From NCBI RefSeq assembly GCF_000337135.1, contig NZ_AOIN01000043.1, forward strand, positions 65,695 to 117,343: DNA of 51,649 bases, written 5' to 3'. Below the pieces are notes generated by a model, which saw nothing but the letters and a program-made list of their open reading frames with translations, made no database searches and was not told where the DNA came from. Below, in pieces: positions 12,585 through 44,244 of the stretch (position 1 is its first letter; each line of letters starts with the position of its first letter). Source of the DNA: Natrialba chahannaoensis JCM 10990 (lineage in GTDB: Archaea; Halobacteriota; Halobacteria; Halobacteriales; Natrialbaceae). The translations under genes and the position numbers were made by a program.

Positions 12585-14417
12585 TCAGCCCAGCCGAGCA
12601 GCCCGGATCGACTCGAGTTCGCTCGCCACGCGCTCGTACGGCGTAGCCGCCGTCACGTCGACGCCGAGCGCGTCAAACGAGGTACTCGACTCATGCCGAC
12701 CCGTGTTTCGGAGGAACGCGAGATATTCCTCGGCCGAGAGCGCGCCAGACTGAAGCCGCCTGACGACCGAGACGGCCGCGACGGTGCCGGTGACGTACTG
12801 GTAGTTGTGGTACGGATCGCGGGTGTATGCCTGTTGTCGCCAGGGTGCGCCCCGCGCCGCTGCAGCCGTGTCGCACTCTGGTGGCGTAACCGGCGCGCGA
12901 AACTCGGCGGCGATGTCCGCGTACAGTTCCGAGAGCCGATCCGGCGTCAGGTCGGTCCCCGACTCGGCGGTTCGGTACACCTCGTGGAGGAACGTTGCGC
13001 TCTCGCCAGCGCCGTAGACGTTGCCGGCGAGGAACTGCGCTCGGCGTTCGCGGACGAACGGGACGAGTTCCGGGCCGCCTTCCTTGCGGAGATGATCGGC
13101 TAACAGCAGTTCGTGGACCAGACTCGGTACCTCACTGACCGGTCGCGGGCTGTTCACGTACCGCGGTGGCTGGGTCGCCCGCATACACTCGATGTGCATC
13201 GCGTGGCCGAGTTCGTGCGCGAGGTAGAACGCCGTCCGCACGTCTTCGCGGAAGTTCGCGAGCACGAACGGTCCGGCGTCCGGACTCGAGGGACAGTACG
13301 CCGGAATATCCGTCCGCTTTCGCGCCGTTGGATAGACATCGATCCGGCGCTCGCCGAGCACCGACTCGAGTCGGTTCCGATAGTCCGTGCCGAGCGGCTC
13401 GACTGCGGTCAGGAGATGGTCACACAGTTCCTCGAACGTGATCTCGGGAGCGTCCGCGTCGTCGGGAACCACCGGCACCCGCTCGTCCCACCGACGCAGT
13501 GTCTCGACGCCGAGTCGGTCGCGGCGGCTCTCGAGTAACCCGTGATACGCCCCGAGGTGATCGCGGACGTTCCCGAGAACCGCGTCGTGAGTGGCTTCGG
13601 CAAACGAGGTGTGCATCCCGGTGTCGGGATAGCTCCGCTCCGAGAGTGCGAGTTCGCGGACCGACTCGTAGTTTCGAACCGCTGTGAGGGCCGCATGAGC
13701 GCGCATTTTCTCGGTGAGCGCCGCCGCGAGCGCGTGGTCGTGGTCAGCCAGCGCGTCGATGTACGCCGTGTGCGCTCGTCGGCGGACTGATCGGTCGGGG
13801 GTATCGAGTGTCTCCCGATACGTGCCGTGGTCGATGGTAACCGGAGCGCCGTCCGGTCCCTCGACAGTTGGTGGATCAAAATCGTCAGTCTTGATCGCGG
13901 CGATCGTATCCGTCTGGGCCTCGATAACGGGCGCGAACGCACCGATGACCGATTCGGTGTCGGCACCACGGGTGTGTGGTGCCTGCGCGAGGAGGTCGTC
14001 GAGGTAGGCGTGCCAGCCGTCCAGTTCGGTGTGCGTTCCATTACGGAAGGCTCGCACGCTCGCTGCGTCGCGCTGAATTCGCCGCTGCAGCCCACGAACG
14101 GCCTCGTCGACGCTGGCGGCGAGTCGCTGTCCGCGACTGTGGCGGTCGCGCCGCTTCTCGTCCGTCGGGTGTTCGTTTCGGTGCAATTGCGCGTAGAGAG
14201 TTAGCCGGCTCTTGGCAACCAGCATAGACTCGATGGACTCGAGTGCGGCTGCCAGCGCGGCGGGTGAGTCGGTCGGCTGCTGGTGATCATGTACTCTTTC
14301 GAGTTGGGACTCGAGAACGTCTGCGGCGCGCGCCCAGTTGGCCGGCGTCTCGTAGAGGCGGGTCAGATCCCAGGTGTACTGTTCGTCCAGTTCGTCGCGT
14401 GTCGGGTAGTCTGTCAT
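12585..14417 (-). CDS. pepF: M3-family oligoendopeptidase F
   Basis: This is a 610-residue cytoplasmic zinc metallopeptidase that cuts short peptides. The zinc motif LAHELGHAMH places the two His ligands at residues 401 and 405, with the catalytic Glu402 and the third ligand in the following helix (HIECM). The rest is helical, as in the M3 clam-shell fold. The C-terminal blocks YQYVTGTVAA and the DPYHNYQY stretch are typical of PepF. No signal peptide is present. The start at 14417 gives MTDYPTRDELDEQYTWDLTRLY, the normal PepF opening. It probably recycles peptides from the proteasome or from importers. Confidence 0.94.
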   Translation of the reverse strand: MTDYPTRDELDEQYTWDLTRLYETPANWARAADVLESQLERVHDHQQPTDSPAALAAALESIESMLVAKSRLTLYAQLHRNEHPTDEKRRDRHSRGQRLAASVDEAVRGLQRRIQRDAASVRAFRNGTHTELDGWHAYLDDLLAQAPHTRGADTESVIGAFAPVIEAQTDTIAAIKTDDFDPPTVEGPDGAPVTIDHGTYRETLDTPDRSVRRRAHTAYIDALADHDHALAAALTEKMRAHAALTAVRNYESVRELALSERSYPDTGMHTSFAEATHDAVLGNVRDHLGAYHGLLESRRDRLGVETLRRWDERVPVVPDDADAPEITFEELCDHLLTAVEPLGTDYRNRLESVLGERRIDVYPTARKRTDIPAYCPSSPDAGPFVLANFREDVRTAFYLAHELGHAMHIECMRATQPPRYVNSPRPVSEVPSLVHELLLADHLRKEGGPELVPFVRERRAQFLAGNVYGAGESATFLHEVYRTAESGTDLTPDRLSELYADIAAEFRAPVTPPECDTAAAARGAPWRQQAYTRDPYHNYQYVTGTVAAVSVVRRLQSGALSAEEYLAFLRNTGRHESSTSFDALGVDVTAATPYERVASELESIRAARLG

Positions 14418-19196: not shown

Positions 19197-20861
19197 ATGG
19201 GAGACGATAGCAAATCGCGACGTACGGTGCTGAAGGGTGTTGGGGCTGCAAGTGCAGCGGGATTGACGACCAGTCTCGCAGGTTGTGTGAGTCAGAACGA
19301 AGAGTCGGATGTCGAGGGTGCGGAGAATCTCGGTGACGAAGTCCCAGAGATTCACCTCGTCGCACCGACGGCCGGTACGAACCCGTTCCGTAACGAACTC
19401 GCAGACATCGTTTCCGACAACTGGGAAGAACTTGGCTTCGATGTCGATCTTGAGGAACTGGAGTTCACCGCGCACGTTGATCAGGTGGTCGTCGAACAGA
19501 ACTTCGACGCGTCACTGCTCGGCTGGGGTGGTACGCCGGAGCGGATCGACCCGCACACGTTCATCTTCGATATGCACCATTCCTCGACGACAGACCAGGG
19601 CGGTCGAAACACGCCGGGGTACGAAAACCCCGACTACGACGAACTGGCGGAGTTGCAGGTGACGCAGGTCGACGAAGACGAGCGCCAGCAGACTGTCTAC
19701 GAGGCCCAGGAGATCATCGCGGAGGATCAACCGCGAACGTACATCGCGAACGAAGGCGGCTACGAGCCGTACGCGAGTTCCCGTGTCACCGACATCAATC
19801 CGACGCTCGGTGAAGGGCTGAACTCGTTCTGGAACCTGACGTCGGTGACGCCGACGGGCGACGACACGGTCCGCTTTGGCTACCCGTCCGAGATCATCTC
19901 GCTGAACCCGATGCGGGACCTGGCGACGCCTGACCGGCAGTTCGTCCGCCTTCTCTACGATCAACTCTACCGGATCGGCGAGGACGGGATGCCGACGTCG
20001 TGGCTGGCGGCAGACGACCCCGTCATCGAAGACGACGGCATGACTTACACCGTCGAGATTCAGGACGGCCACACCTTCCACGACGGCGAGCCAGTGACGA
20101 TCGACGACGTGGCGTTCACCTACGAACTCTACGCCGATTCGCCGACCTACAGCTCGCTCGTCGAGGATATCGAGGAGATCGACACCTCGGGGAACGAGAT
20201 TACGTTCCACCTCGCAGAGGAGTACGCGCCGTTCGTGGCAAACGTCCTCGGACAGGTGTACATCTTCCCTGAACACATCTGGGGCGATGTCGATCCTGAC
20301 GAGCTCGTCGACTTCGAAGACGAGAACTGGACCGGCAGCGGCCCGTTCGAGTTCGTTGACTGGGAGCGCCAGGCCGAACTGCAGCTATCGGCGTTCGACG
20401 ACCACTTCGAGGCACCGAACGCGGACAACCTCATCCGCGTTCCCGGTGCAGACACCGCACAGCTCGTCAACGATCTCGAGGCCGGTCAGCTCGATATGGT
20501 TGGTGCGGTGCCACAGCCGACGGCCGTCAATCGTGTCAGAGATGACGACGACCTTGATCTCGCCGAGTTCGAGGCCATCGGGTACGCGATGATCGAGTAC
20601 AACATGCGCCGCGAACCGTTGGGCGACCGCCACATTCGCCGGGCACTCTCCTACGGTGTCCCGAAGGAGGAGTACGTCGAGTTCATCCGTGATGGCATGG
20701 GGACAGTGACGCATTCGACCATCTCCGAGCACAACGAGTTCTGGCACAATCCCGACGTCGAGCAGTTCAACGAGGACTTAGAGGCCGCACGTCAGGAACT
20801 CGCAAACGGTGGCTACGGCTGGAACGACGACGGTCGACTCCACTACGGCGAAGACCAGTAA
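19197..20861 (+). CDS. circularly permuted SBP_bac_5-type ABC substrate-binding lipoprotein
   Basis: This 554-residue binding protein serves the peptide/nickel-type importer encoded by the next four genes. A Tat signal (RR at residues 8-9) and a lipobox LAGC with Cys30 give surface anchoring. The order of the mature part is unusual. Residues about 50-216 are the segment that closes normal DppA-like proteins: NELADIVSDNWEELGFDVDL, then ASLLGWGG near 105, HHSS near 128, GYENPDYDEL at 141-150 and VYEAQEIIAED. Residues about 222-554 are the normal N-terminal part: SLNPMRDLATP, YTVEIQDGHTFHDGEPVTID at 284-303, GSGPFEFVDW and RRALSYGVPKEEYV. The chain ends at ARQELANGGYGWNDDGRLHY plus GEDQ, where a normal protein would run into the segment found here at residue 50. 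All parts are present once, so it is a circular permutation, not a truncation. Confidence 0.9.
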   Translation: MGDDSKSRRTVLKGVGAASAAGLTTSLAGCVSQNEESDVEGAENLGDEVPEIHLVAPTAGTNPFRNELADIVSDNWEELGFDVDLEELEFTAHVDQVVVEQNFDASLLGWGGTPERIDPHTFIFDMHHSSTTDQGGRNTPGYENPDYDELAELQVTQVDEDERQQTVYEAQEIIAEDQPRTYIANEGGYEPYASSRVTDINPTLGEGLNSFWNLTSVTPTGDDTVRFGYPSEIISLNPMRDLATPDRQFVRLLYDQLYRIGEDGMPTSWLAADDPVIEDDGMTYTVEIQDGHTFHDGEPVTIDDVAFTYELYADSPTYSSLVEDIEEIDTSGNEITFHLAEEYAPFVANVLGQVYIFPEHIWGDVDPDELVDFEDENWTGSGPFEFVDWERQAELQLSAFDDHFEAPNADNLIRVPGADTAQLVNDLEAGQLDMVGAVPQPTAVNRVRDDDDLDLAEFEAIGYAMIEYNMRREPLGDRHIRRALSYGVPKEEYVEFIRDGMGTVTHSTISEHNEFWHNPDVEQFNEDLEAARQELANGGYGWNDDGRLHYGEDQ

Positions 20862-20948: not shown

Positions 20949-21929
20949 ATGGGACTGAGAGCCTACGTCGTGAGACGGTGTCTCCAGCTCGTCGTCACGT
21001 TCTGGGCGTTCTTTACGCTCCTGTTCGTTCTCTTTCGAATGATGCCGGGCGATCCGACATCCATGTTCATCATGGACGGCATGACACCCGAACAGCGCGA
21101 ACAGCGGATCGCAGAGCTCGGCTTAAACGAACCCCTCCACGTGCAGTACATCGAATACGTTCGCCAGCTGCTGACCGGCGACTTCGGCCAGTCGTTCATC
21201 TACAACGATCCGGTGACCAGCATCATCGTTGTCCGGTTCATGAACACGATCGTCCTGATGGCGACAGCGCTCATCTTCGCCTACATCATCGGCATCACCT
21301 TCGGTGCCCTCATGGGCTGGTGGCGCGACTCGCGGTTCGAACGCGGTGGCATCATCGTGACGCTCGTGGCCCGCTCCTCGCCGGAGTTCTGGGTCGGCAT
21401 CGTCCTCCTGTCCGTGTTCGTCTTCTGGCTCGGCTGGTTCCCCTCGAGTGGGATGCGCACGACGGGTGGTGAGCTCGGCGGCGGCTTCGTCGCCCGGTAC
21501 GGCTCGCTTGACTTCCTGCACCACCTGTTCCTGCCGGCGTTGACCGGTGCGATTGCCTATCTGGCGACGCCGACGCTGCTCATGCGCTCGACGATGCTCG
21601 ACGTTCTGAACGCCGACTTCATTGAGATCAAGAAGGCGGAGGGACTGCCAGAGCGGACGGTACTGTACAAGCACGCCGCTCGAAACTCGATCCTGCCGAT
21701 CGTGACGGTTGCAGCAATCGCGACTGGGACTGCGATGGGTGGCTCGGTCGTCATCGAGACCGTCTTCAACTGGCCAGGAATGGGTCGTGAGATGGTGAGT
21801 GCGGTAAACAACAACGACTATCCGCTGGCGATGGCGGCGTTCTTCCTCATGGGATCGGTCGTGATCATCATGAATTTCGTCGCTGACCTCGCCTACGTCT
21901 ACCTCGATCCGAGGGTGGAGTACGAATGA
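20949..21929 (+). CDS. peptide/nickel-type ABC transporter permease (DppB-like)
   Basis: This 326-residue permease has the family N-terminus, a first helix VVTFWAFFTLLFVLFRMMPGDP followed by an outer loop, and five further helices. The binding-protein-dependent transport domain is in the C-terminal two thirds. The cytoplasmic coupling loop reads IKKAEGLPERTVLYKHAARNSILP, the EAA-like motif that contacts the ATPase, and is followed by GGSVVIETVFNWPGMG. All are typical of DppB/OppB. The stop overlaps the start of the next permease by 4 bases, indicating translational coupling. Confidence 0.94.
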   Translation: MGLRAYVVRRCLQLVVTFWAFFTLLFVLFRMMPGDPTSMFIMDGMTPEQREQRIAELGLNEPLHVQYIEYVRQLLTGDFGQSFIYNDPVTSIIVVRFMNTIVLMATALIFAYIIGITFGALMGWWRDSRFERGGIIVTLVARSSPEFWVGIVLLSVFVFWLGWFPSSGMRTTGGELGGGFVARYGSLDFLHHLFLPALTGAIAYLATPTLLMRSTMLDVLNADFIEIKKAEGLPERTVLYKHAARNSILPIVTVAAIATGTAMGGSVVIETVFNWPGMGREMVSAVNNNDYPLAMAAFFLMGSVVIIMNFVADLAYVYLDPRVEYE

Positions 21930-22870
21930 GCACCGAACAACCGTCACCGATCGACAGCACGACGACCAGCATCGGCGAGCGATTCGCATCGCTCCGACAG
22001 CGATTCGAGGTATTCGAAGGCGACCGACTCGGGCAGATCGGGCTGGCGATCCTCGCGCTGTTCATCTTCATCGGGATCTTCGCTCGACCGTACACGATCG
22101 AGCTCTTTGACTTCACGATTTCGACACCCGGACTCGCACCGTACGATCCGGGTGAGCGAGCAGTCGGCGACCGACTCGAGTCCCCCTCGGTAGCGCACCC
22201 CCTCGGAACGACCGACATGGGTCGGGACGTGTTGTCCCAGCTTATCGCAGGGACGCGCGTGACGTTGATCGTCGGCAGTCTCGCGGCGTTCATGGCTGTC
22301 TTCATCGGTACGAACGTCGGCCTCATCAGCGCCTACTTCGGCGGCTGGGTCGACGACGTGCTGATGCGGATCACCGACATCGTTTACGGTGTGCCGTTCC
22401 TGCCGTTCGCGATCGTCCTCGTGGCGGTCCTGGGCAGCAGTATCGTCAACATCATCGTGGCGATCGTGTTGATTCTGTGGCGCTCGACGGCGCGGGTGAT
22501 CCGAGCGCAGGTGTTGAGCCACAAGCAACGACCGTACGTCGAGAGTGCACAGGCCATCGGTGCCGGCCACGTGCGGATCATGTACCGCCACATCCTGCCG
22601 AACGTGTTGCCGCTGACGTTCCTGTACGCGGCGTTCGCAGTTGCGTGGGCAGTCATCGCCGAGGCCAGCCTCTCGTTCCTCGGCTTTGGCGATCCGAACA
22701 TGCTCTCGTGGGGTGAGATGATCTACAACGTCTACACCGCGAACGCGATCCGCGAGGCGTGGTGGTGGGTCTTCCCACCGGGCATCTGCATCATGCTGTT
22801 CGTAATGTCGGTGTTCTTCATCGGCCGCACGCTCGAGAAAGAGGTCAACCCTGAACTCAACCACCAATAA
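21926..22870 (+). CDS. peptide/nickel-type ABC transporter permease (DppC-like)
   Basis: This 314-residue second permease has an N-terminal helix (about residues 33-52), then the DppC block HPLGTTDMGRDVLSQLIAGTR. The permease core follows with coupling loop SAQAIGAGHVRIMYRHILPN and the EASLSFLGFGDP block. It ends ...FIGRTLEKEVNPELNH as DppC proteins do. It pairs with the preceding DppB-like protein to form the membrane channel. The TAA stop shares one base with the ATG of the ATPase gene that follows. Confidence 0.94.
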   Translation: MSTEQPSPIDSTTTSIGERFASLRQRFEVFEGDRLGQIGLAILALFIFIGIFARPYTIELFDFTISTPGLAPYDPGERAVGDRLESPSVAHPLGTTDMGRDVLSQLIAGTRVTLIVGSLAAFMAVFIGTNVGLISAYFGGWVDDVLMRITDIVYGVPFLPFAIVLVAVLGSSIVNIIVAIVLILWRSTARVIRAQVLSHKQRPYVESAQAIGAGHVRIMYRHILPNVLPLTFLYAAFAVAWAVIAEASLSFLGFGDPNMLSWGEMIYNVYTANAIREAWWWVFPPGICIMLFVMSVFFIGRTLEKEVNPELNHQ

Positions 22871-23955
22871 TGACGCTACTCGATATTGACGGACTGAAGA
22901 CGTACTACGGTGCCGACGACGGCTGGGTTCGTGCGACGGACGACGCCTCGCTGTCGATCGAGCGCGGCGAGACTGTCGGTCTGGTCGGCGAAAGTGGCAG
23001 CGGGAAGACGACACTTGCGAAGTCGATCATTCGCTTGCTGCCGGACAATGCCGAGATCGTCGACGGCTCCATCGAGTTCGACGGAACTGAGATCACCGAG
23101 CTCTCCGACAAAGAGCTCAGACGCCAGATCCGCTGGTCGGAAATCTCGATGATTCCGCAGAACGCGATGAACGGCTTCGACCCTGTCTACACTGTCGGCG
23201 ACCAGATCGTCGAAGTGATCAGACACCACGAGGACGACACCTCGAAGGCCGAGGCCCGCGAGCGCGGCCGCGAACTGTTCGACGATCTCGGGATCGATCC
23301 CGACCGCATCGACGACTATCCCCACCAGTTCTCCGGTGGGATGGCCCAGCGTGCGATGATCGCGCTCGCACTCGCGCTCTCGCCGTCGCTCGTGCTCGCA
23401 GACGAGCCAACGACGGCGCTCGACGTGGTCATTCAGGACCGTATCCTGGAGACGATCAAAGAGATGCAGGAGGAACTGAACAGCGCGATGATCATGATCA
23501 CCCACGACATGTCGGTCGTCAGTGAAACCTGCGACCGCATCGCCGTGGTCTACGGCGGCCGAATCGTCGAACTCGCGGACGCCGAGACGATCATCACGAA
23601 CCCGCGCCACCCCTACACGCTCGGACTGCGAAACGCCTTCCCCGACATCAGCGACGACGATCAGGAACTCATCTCCATCCCCGGCTCGCCGCCGGAGCTT
23701 GTCGACCCTGGCGAAGGCTGTCGCTTCGCACCGCGCTGTCCGTTCGCCGAGGAGGAATGCTGGGAGGTAACGCCCCAACCCGAGTCCTACGGCGACGGCC
23801 ATCAGGTCGAGTGCCACCGCGCCGACGAGATCGAGCACCTGCAGGCGGAAGCCGGCAAGAAAGAGACCTGGCGCGAGCAGGACCTTGGCGACCGTGAACC
23901 GGTTGGGACAGCCGACGAGCAGGCCGCGGAAGCGGAGGTGAGACTCGATGACTGA
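22870..23955 (+). CDS. peptide/nickel-type ABC transporter ATPase (DppD-like)
   Basis: This 361-residue ATPase has Walker A GESGSGKT at residues 40-47, a Q-loop, signature FSGGMAQRAMIALAL, Walker B LVLADEPTTALD and switch His in MIMITHDMSVV. The signature reads SGGM rather than SGGQ, which is usual in DppD. A C-terminal oligopeptide-transporter tail carries the Cys block CRFAPRCPFAEEECW, and another Cys lies downstream in VECHR. In relatives these cysteines can bind an iron-sulfur cluster. It works as a heterodimer with the next gene product. It overlaps that gene by 8 bases. Confidence 0.94.
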   Translation: MTLLDIDGLKTYYGADDGWVRATDDASLSIERGETVGLVGESGSGKTTLAKSIIRLLPDNAEIVDGSIEFDGTEITELSDKELRRQIRWSEISMIPQNAMNGFDPVYTVGDQIVEVIRHHEDDTSKAEARERGRELFDDLGIDPDRIDDYPHQFSGGMAQRAMIALALALSPSLVLADEPTTALDVVIQDRILETIKEMQEELNSAMIMITHDMSVVSETCDRIAVVYGGRIVELADAETIITNPRHPYTLGLRNAFPDISDDDQELISIPGSPPELVDPGEGCRFAPRCPFAEEECWEVTPQPESYGDGHQVECHRADEIEHLQAEAGKKETWREQDLGDREPVGTADEQAAEAEVRLDD

Positions 23956-25324
23956 TCCGAACGCAGTTGGACTCGATTCTGACCCCGAATCCAACGCCGA
24001 GTCGACCACCGCCGCCACCGCGGGCGACGATCACGACGAAACGTACAAGCTCCGTGTCGAGGGACTCGAGAAGCACTTCCCGGTCAACACGGGACTCGTC
24101 TCGCGCATCCTCCACGGCGAGAGCAACGACGCAGTCAAAGCCGTCGACGGCGTCTCACTCGGTATTCGTGAGGGAGAGGCGTTTGGACTCGCTGGCGAAT
24201 CCGGCTGTGGAAAGACGACGCTCGGCAAGAGCGCGATAAGACTGCTTGAACCAACGGGTGGCGATATCTACTTCGACGGGAAGGAGATCACCGACGTCGG
24301 CGGTGCTGAACTCAACGAGTTCCGTCGTGAGGCGCAGATCATCCACCAGGACCCGTACAAGTCACTCAATCCGCGATTCACGGTCTACGAGTGGGTCAAA
24401 GAGCCTCTCGACGTGCACGACGTCGGCACCAGCGAGGAGCGCGACGCGCGCGTCTACGAGACCATTGAACAGGCCGGACTCCGACCGGCTGCGGCCTACG
24501 CCGACGAGTACCCGAGCGAGCTTTCGGGCGGCGAACGCCAGCGCGTCGGCATCGCTCGCGCGCTTGCGCTCAAGCCGTCGTTCCTGCTGGCCGACGAGCC
24601 GGCGAGTATGCTCGACGTTTCGATTCGGGCGAGCATTCTCGACCTGTTCAAGGAGCTCCAGACGGAGCTCGGACTGACGGCGGTCTACATCAGTCACGAC
24701 CTCTCCCTGCTCAAGCACATGTGCGACCGGATCGGGATCATGTATCTAGGCGAACTGGTCGAAGTCGGGCCGGCCGACCAGATCATCAACGATCCAAAGC
24801 ATCCCTACACGCAGGCGCTTGTCTCTTCGGTCCCGCGGATCGACCCGACCGAAGACCGCGAGCGGATCGAACTCGTCGGCGAGGTGCCTGACCCCGTCGA
24901 CGTGCCGAGTGGCTGTCGGTTTCACCCGCGCTGTCCGAAACTGGTCCAACCAGAAGGCTACGAGCTGGATCAGGATCACTGGCGTGCGGTCGCGAACTTC
25001 CGGCAGGACCTGCTCTGTGACGATCTCACGCTCACGAGCGAAGACGAGGAAGCGACACCTGCTGCGCTCCGTGAGTCCTACGACATTCCGCCTACACTCG
25101 CAGATTCGGCGGCCGAACGCGTCCTCTCGGATGTCCTCACGACGGCGACCGAGGGTGACCGCGAACAGGCTCGCGACCGAATCGAAACCGAGTTCGAATC
25201 ACCCTGTGAACGCGGCGAAATCACGACGCATCAGGTGACGCCGGAGCAGACAGCGAAGTGTGTCCGGTACGACGACGCCGACCGGTACGGTCCGGAGGGC
25301 GGCGGCACGATTCAGGGCGACTGA
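23948..25324 (+). CDS. peptide/nickel-type ABC transporter ATPase (DppF-like) with C-terminal insertion
   Basis: This 458-residue ATPase has Walker A GESGCGKT, signature [16 protein letters not shown], Walker [13 protein letters not shown] and switch His in YISHDLS. The oligopeptide-transporter tail begins with [10 protein letters not shown]. Before its last cysteines (SPCERGE and AKCVRY) lie about 110 extra residues (about 340-430), acidic and helical. I have seen this arrangement in other haloarchaeal DppF proteins, so it is probably a lineage feature. The first 30 residues are also disordered and acidic. It closes the operon, and 22-base tandem repeats follow just after its stop. Confidence 0.93.
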
Positions 25325-42960: not shown

Positions 42961-44244
42961 ATGAACTACAACTACAGGTATCGACTCCGACCGTCCGACG
43001 CTCTCGAAGAACAGTTAGCGTGGACTGTCAATACCTGTAGACAGGTCTACAACCACTTCCTCCACCGACTCAACCGAACCGACGATACCTCGGCATACAG
43101 CGAACAGAAACTCCTGCCGAGCCTCAAGAAGTGGTGGAACGACCTGAAACACGTTCACTCGAAAGTGCTTCAGAAAGTCGTTCAGCGGTTGTACGACAAC
43201 CTCTCGACGCTTCGCGGTCGCAAAGACAACGGCTACCGCGTCGGCACGCTCAACTGGAAAGCACCGGGCGAGTACCGCAGTTTCACCTACAGTCAATCCG
43301 GCTTCAAGCTCAAGAACACGAGCGGTCGGACCCGATTGTGGCTCTCGAAACTCGGAGAAATCCCACTCACCTTCCACCGTGACCTCCCCGACGACGCCGA
43401 AATCAAGACCGTCACGGTCAAACAGGAACCGACCGGGAAGTGGTACGCCATCCTCGGTGTCGAAACCCCTGACGACCCGCCGGAGAAACCGGAGAATCCC
43501 GAGCGGTACGTCGGCATCGACGTGGGGATTCTCAAGTGCGCCCACGACACCGACGGAACCGCCGTCGAATCGCTTGACCTGTCCGACGAACGCGAACGGT
43601 TGGAACGCGCACAGCGTGACCTCTCGCGGAAACAGCACGGGTCTGAGAATTGGGAGAAACAGCGTCGAGTCGTGGCCGAGCGTCACGCCGAGTTGAAGAC
43701 CAAGCGCCGTGACTTCCTCCACAAGCTCTCGAACTACTACGCCACCGAGTACGACTTTGTAGCGGTCGAGGACTTGGACGCGAAGGGCTTGGTCGAACTA
43801 CCGGGCAACTCTCGGAACCGCGCAGGGGCGGCGTGGGGGACGTTCCTACGGATGCTTGAGTACAAGTGTGAGCGGGAAGGAACGCACTTCGTCGCGGTGA
43901 ATCCGCGTGGGACGACCAAAGAGTGTGCGTCCTGTGGTGTTTCGACTGAGAAACCGCTGTGGGTGCGCGAACACTCCTGTCCGGCGTGTGGGTTTGAAGC
44001 GGATAGAGACGCGAACGCGGCATGGAATATTCTTTCTCGCGGTATCAAGAAGCGGTTAGGAGCGGGACGCTCCGAATCAACGTCCTCAGAATCGCACAGC
44101 GATTCTGATGGGCTGCGAAAATCGCTCAGCGATTTTCGAACGCCTGTAGAGACTGCGCTCCCTGTGGATACGTCCGTATCTGCAAAGCGCGTCGTTGAAT
44201 CAGGAAGCCCCACCCTCAAGCGCGAGCCGTCAGGCGAGCGGTAG
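42961..44244 (+). CDS. tnpB: RNA-guided endonuclease TnpB
   Basis: TnpB is the OrfB protein of IS605-type elements, an RuvC-like nuclease guided by RNA from the element's right end and related to Cas12. The 427-residue protein keeps every RuvC acid: Asp187 in GIDVG, Glu270 in VAVEDL and Asp350 in ADRDANAAWNI. The zinc finger has Cys322, Cys325, Cys340 and Cys343. The N-terminal about 180 residues form the recognition part (YRYRLRPSDALEEQ, CRQVYNHFL). It therefore looks active. The last about 57 residues (from about 370) are Ser-rich and charged because this DNA also encodes the omega-RNA hairpins; they are not needed for the fold. Confidence 0.93.
   Translation: MNYNYRYRLRPSDALEEQLAWTVNTCRQVYNHFLHRLNRTDDTSAYSEQKLLPSLKKWWNDLKHVHSKVLQKVVQRLYDNLSTLRGRKDNGYRVGTLNWKAPGEYRSFTYSQSGFKLKNTSGRTRLWLSKLGEIPLTFHRDLPDDAEIKTVTVKQEPTGKWYAILGVETPDDPPEKPENPERYVGIDVGILKCAHDTDGTAVESLDLSDERERLERAQRDLSRKQHGSENWEKQRRVVAERHAELKTKRRDFLHKLSNYYATEYDFVAVEDLDAKGLVELPGNSRNRAGAAWGTFLRMLEYKCEREGTHFVAVNPRGTTKECASCGVSTEKPLWVREHSCPACGFEADRDANAAWNILSRGIKKRLGAGRSESTSSESHSDSDGLRKSLSDFRTPVETALPVDTSVSAKRVVESGSPTLKREPSGER

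Follow-up and report, generated by a model that had tools for sequence, protein, structure and literature searches.

Sequence evidence for a circular permutation in a haloarchaeal peptide-importer binding protein, and for its recurrence at one loop

Can the substrate-binding protein (SBP) of a peptide-type ABC importer have been circularly permuted, and if so, how and how often? The question is raised by one gene in the window analysed here, a 51,649-nucleotide stretch of the Natrialba chahannaoensis JCM 10990 genome. The original prediction, made from the letters alone, held that residues of about 50 to 216 of its product are normally C-terminal and residues of about 222 to 554 normally N-terminal. 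The open reading frame occupies exactly 19197-20861 of the + strand (554 aa plus stop). Residues 1-30 (19197-19286, +) read as a Tat-type lipoprotein signal, with SRRTVLKG, the lipobox LAGC, Cys30 and a weak TAT_signal match, and an acidic linker follows behind the lipid anchor (residues 31-49, 19287-19343, +). In profile and structure-sequence alignments, residues 50-216 (19344-19844, +) correspond to the normal C-terminal part, comprising the second half of lobe 2 and the final lobe 1 segment. The joint between the old C-terminus and the old N-terminus was placed by alignment at residues 217-222, or about 215-222 (19845-19862, +), and residues 222-554 (19860-20858, +) match the normal N-terminal part, lobe 1 plus the first half of lobe 2, in Pfam and phmmer searches.

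The native protein matched SBP_bac_5 (PF00496) at 208 bits in two pieces of reversed profile order (293-362 before 3-284). Residues 267-546 aligned with profile positions 3-284, and the fragment 46-217, searched alone, aligned with 293-362; it is thus the missing C-terminal part of the SBP, and the idea that residues 50-216 form an additional domain can be dismissed. Phmmer against the PDB placed residues 224-546 on positions 13-328 of 8efz and residues 54-179 on positions 341-455, with the same swap against AppA (1xoc). When the sequence was rotated (218-554 followed by 46-217), a single SBP_bac_5 piece covered profile positions 3-361 of 368 at 218 bits, and the matches to 8efz, AppA 1xoc and DppA 1dpp each became single and collinear, bearing out the predicted exchange. 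The predicted breakpoints (end GRLHYGEDQ, start EIHLVAP) and short joint agreed with the alignments, and the view that nothing is duplicated held as well, since a blastp comparison between the two blocks returned nothing at E<=1. None of 2000 shuffles of the protein matched either block profile at E<=10. An AlphaFold2 model from 11 close sequences was too poor (mean pLDDT 41), so the fold assignment rests on sequence. At this level the protein is identified as a circularly permuted family-5 (cluster C, SBP_bac_5) binding protein, in which the old N- and C-termini meet with hardly any linker between them and the new opening lies at a helix-strand loop in lobe 2.

Four genes identified by Pfam follow on the + strand: a dppB-like permease (BPD_transp_1, 20949-21929), a dppC-like permease (BPD_transp_1, 21926-22870), and dppD-like (22870-23955) and dppF-like (23948-25324) ATPases, both with ABC_tran and oligo_HPY. 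Ten relatives with the permuted order, at 60-93% identity, were found in Natrialba, Natronorubrum, Halobiforma, Halorubrum, Natronocalculus, Natronococcus and a Halococcaceae bin. In all 10 relatives from named genomes dppBCDF comes directly after the permuted gene, with dppB adjoining it and dppC, dppD and dppF kept. Comparison of the window protein with the five relatives tested gave dN/dS values of 0.09-0.16 in both blocks, indicating that both halves are under purifying selection. Full-length permuted matches at 1e-80 occurred in 32 of 392 genomes of the order.

Block profiles built from 24 permuted sequences (alignment A1) were used to classify fetched open reading frames. The number of residues after the N-block separated the two orders cleanly, being 0-57 in permuted vs 150-248 in normal proteins. 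By this measure 62 of 111 distinct SBP reading frames were permuted, in a set gathered by similarity to the window protein and therefore giving no frequency. At 1e-60 the A1 profile matched 95 of 145 well-assembled haloarchaeal genomes (39 of 49 genera), and among the matches listed nearly all were collinear over the whole permuted model, a few being partial. The guess that haloarchaeal relatives share the order was right. N. chahannaoensis itself has 11 SBP_bac_5 genes, of which four are permuted (on contigs C43, C55 twice, and C77) and seven are normal, or unclassified with long C-terminal parts. On contig C55 (17032-21660; L066, L067, L070), two divergent permuted SBP genes of about 630-730 aa lie close together. 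In the bacterial survey, which covered plasmids, full-length permuted relatives at about 28-33% identity were present on alphaproteobacterial plasmids, the plasmid hosts being Nitratireductor, Microvirga, Ketogulonicigenium, Roseomonas, Maritalea and Neorhizobium. A scan of viral contigs yielded no relative. In a search of the phylum, permuted proteins outside haloarchaea appeared in one other archaeal class, in genome G550 and in a genus labelled g136. A PGF-type C-terminal anchor is among the features that suggest Archaeoglobi for both. A lipobox was present in 54 and an RR motif in 49 of 55 permuted archaeal homologues, and the lipobox was absent from seven alphaproteobacterial permuted proteins. 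By these surveys, the permuted order marks an old, widespread family.

What might these proteins bind? Several bacterial and haloarchaeal permuted SBPs adjoin genes for permeases, ATPases, a peptidase, hydantoinase/oxoprolinase, creatininase, D-aminoacylase or dipeptide epimerase. For the members concerned, such neighbours speak for peptide-like substrates. Among permuted-SBP operons (L055, L051, L052, L057, L127, L128), genes for creatininase, M20/M28/M81 peptidases, hydantoinase/oxoprolinase, D-aminoacylase and dipeptide epimerase recur, hinting at D-amino-acid or cyclic peptide substrates. Directly beside the window operon there is no neighbour of the peptidase, hydantoinase, creatininase, D-aminoacylase or epimerase type. 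About 5 kb from the importer, an oligoendopeptidase F-like gene was recognised by sequence reading (12585-14417, -); its product may act on imported peptides. An IS605-type OrfB/TnpB transposase gene is located at 42961-44244 (+).

The dipeptide is bound in DppA by R383 and D436 (PMC12136057), and both positions were compared as a clue to the substrate. No residue of the permuted family corresponds to R383, and D436 aligns with an acidic residue (E115 in the window protein). In the permuted-family alignment A1, residues 110-122 of the window protein carry W-x-G-x-P-x-R-x-[DE]-P-x-x-F, a signature shared by many permuted members and absent from the normal-order proteins compared; we regard it as a candidate ligand-contact region. 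Against the DppA model NF043070 the window protein scored 73.8 bits in two pieces, below the curated cut-off of 1005 bits. Ordinary capture of peptide-like ligands is the function that we infer for the permuted SBPs.

To count the origins of the permuted order, we built trees from each block. In the N-block tree, which does not use the moved part, the haloarchaeal and bacterial permuted proteins formed one group requiring one change. Support for this group was SH-aLRT 85 or 89 depending on the row set, and 51 with only nine rows, so that its standing as one clade is moderately supported. Bacterial rows fell among haloarchaeal rows, which shows transfer between domains in one direction or the other. 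A small C-block tree required three changes, of which starred branches forced none; with the full-length alignment after rotation the number was one. The AU test rejected a single clade of all permuted proteins (p 4e-55, at a cost of 216 log-likelihood units), a clade of the haloarchaeal group with G550 (p 4e-9) and a clade of g136 with G550 (p 1.2e-4). Taken together, the trees and these rejections set the number of separate permutations at three or more.

In alignments to DppA, OppA and YejA of E. coli, the three cuts map to residues 367-376 of the DppA precursor and 395-416 of mature YejA. Lobe 2 of YejA spans residues 287-539 (PMC10924461), and the new ends therefore lie in a helix-strand loop of this lobe. 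Because the N- and C-termini of other oligopeptide-binding proteins lie near each other in domain I (PMC10924461), the ends that have been joined are expected to be neighbours in the permuted protein. Thus three or more permutations have cut the same lobe-2 loop. The presence of the order in bacteria and its repeated origin go beyond what the original prediction had seen.

The most recent case is that of genus g136, in which three genomes (L188-L190) have the permuted form and four (L191-L194) the normal form; in the class concerned, all other matched genomes except G550 are of normal order. Between permuted and normal g136 genes, protein identity is 83-86% in both blocks, and DNA identity is about 77-81%. 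They have similar signal peptides, and one pair shares a matching leader stretch around the start codon. The normal gene reads ...AGYSEDNKLKLELWW... and terminates in ...FRYYLVYETT, while the permuted gene has a lipoprotein signal of the normal kind, followed by KLKIELWW, then ...FRYYLVYSEEQKDTITIGV..., and the last residues ...KKAGYSE. The linker SEEQKDT is similar to the acidic stretch that follows the signal peptide of the normal protein, a likeness consistent with duplication followed by fusion and trimming. The direction of change, from normal to permuted, is taken from the nesting of the g136 permuted genes among normal genes, not from change counts. The permuted gene stands, divergent, beside dppBCDF, whereas the normal gene of the sister species is far from dppBCDF, which in these species is located elsewhere without an adjacent SBP of that type. 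In outgroups of g136 a normal SBP lies directly upstream of dppB. The permutation thus coincides with a local rearrangement. The permuted SBP of G550 (L161:3733-5472, -), an independent permutation by the AU test, begins with a cleavable-type signal and ends, behind a linker rich in Thr, Pro and Glu, in a PGF-type membrane tail.

We are highly confident that the product of the gene is the binding protein of a DppABCDF-type peptide importer, that its chain has been circularly permuted, and that such permutation recurred at the same loop. Duplication, fusion and trimming make up the most likely origin. By this inferred route, the gene would have been duplicated in tandem and the copies fused in frame with loss of the second signal peptide; the N-terminal part of the first copy would then have been deleted behind its signal peptide, and a stop would have arisen in the second copy at the loop. 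The duplication-and-truncation part of the original prediction is suggested by the recent g136 case, but a tandem intermediate, sought beside the g136 permuted genes, was not found. In the resulting protein, lobe 1 would become one continuous insert in lobe 2, and the lipid anchor would hang from lobe 2 instead of lobe 1. The flytrap itself would be unchanged, capturing its ligand, probably peptides or related compounds, and handing it over to DppBC as usual.

Could the reversed order be an artefact of assembly, or of two misjoined neighbouring genes? We consider the probability of this negligible. The same order recurs in dozens of independent genomes, including single-contig assemblies (G491, G094, G128), and in complete plasmids, and the low dN/dS is against it as well; all the sequence checks proposed beforehand (separate alignment of the blocks, rotation, profile search, relatives, a tree) support circular permutation. 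A mosaic, in which the C-like block was fused from a different SBP gene, is unlikely, if less remote. Such an origin was put forward for TpMglB-2, in which the moved part gives a poor alignment to the normal relative (PMC4990184), and the three changes of the C-block tree, compared with one for the N-block, would suit it. However, the conflict in the C-block tree of the old family is unsupported and gives way to one change in the rotated full-length alignment, and both g136 blocks are equally near the same normal gene (about 83-86% each).

That every permuted protein is cut in the same loop would also be expected if a single ancient permutation lay behind all three groups and normal order had been restored later. 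Such a history is very improbable given the 216 log-likelihood units that an all-permuted clade costs (p 4e-55), the g136 permuted genes nested inside normal genes at 83-86% identity, and the repeated reverse permutations needed to bring back the exact normal order together with a fresh signal peptide. A further proposal concerns only the cause and is compatible with permutation by duplication at a recurrent site: the permutation may have been selected for moving the anchor from lobe 1 to lobe 2. The authors of the TpMglB-2 study raised a similar idea (PMC4990184), and both the near-universal lipobox of the archaeal permuted proteins and the C-terminal membrane-spanning tail that the G550 protein has instead are in keeping with it. 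Nevertheless, the seven alphaproteobacterial proteins without a lipobox and the normal-order g136 orthologues, which are likewise lipoproteins, weigh against selection for a new tether, and we hold this cause to be possible but doubtful.

Circular permutations in nature are as a rule single, ancient events seen after their traces have vanished. Here, by contrast, the change recurs at one loop in separate lineages, and within an archaeal genus pairs of permuted and normal genes only about 15% apart open the route and effect of permutation to before-and-after study. A class of importers that is common in haloarchaea is, moreover, split or incompletely annotated by profiles of linear order. We lean slightly towards a broader proposal, namely that cluster C proteins have a preferred lobe-2 permutation site used at least three times, that the permuted form, a 'cluster Cc', would make up a major class of importers in archaea and alphaproteobacteria that has gone unrecognised, and that the move of the anchor or of the folding order to lobe 2 is functionally consequential.

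Among known systems, the window protein resembles DppA, OppA, AppA and YejA (SBP_bac_5, cluster C) in having all the sequence elements of the family, dppBCDF partners and a lipoprotein or Sec/Tat signal, and after rotation it can be aligned from one end to the other with DppA, AppA and 8efz. It differs from cluster C proteins in that the chain is opened in lobe 2 and the old termini are fused, so that Pfam and NCBIfam see split pieces only. We found no description of a permuted family-5 protein in the open-access literature, in which the sole permuted transport binding protein found was TpMglB-2 (Tp0684), a circularly permuted glucose-binding lipoprotein of 'Type Ic / Cluster Bc' with a solved structure (PMC4990184). 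Like the window protein, it is a naturally permuted, lipid-anchored binding protein of an ABC importer, and ligand binding by this flytrap, permuted but of another cluster, involves a conformational change (PMC4990184). Unlike the window protein, it has a Type I/cluster B fold, an N-lobe cut, a fourth hinge crossing and a large insertion; its moved part is 13% identical to its counterpart, and it occurs mostly in treponemes and Gram-positive bacteria (PMC4990184). In Pfam, NCBIfam and phmmer searches, the window protein matched only family-5/cluster C proteins, not Type I/cluster B. The nearest normal-order relatives are the normal g136 orthologues (L167-L170) for the recent g136 permuted proteins, and SBPs of the Cytobacillus/methanogen type (L122, L086, L089, L091) for the old haloarchaeal ones; both differ from the permuted proteins in having their blocks in standard order, with about 160 residues after the N-block.
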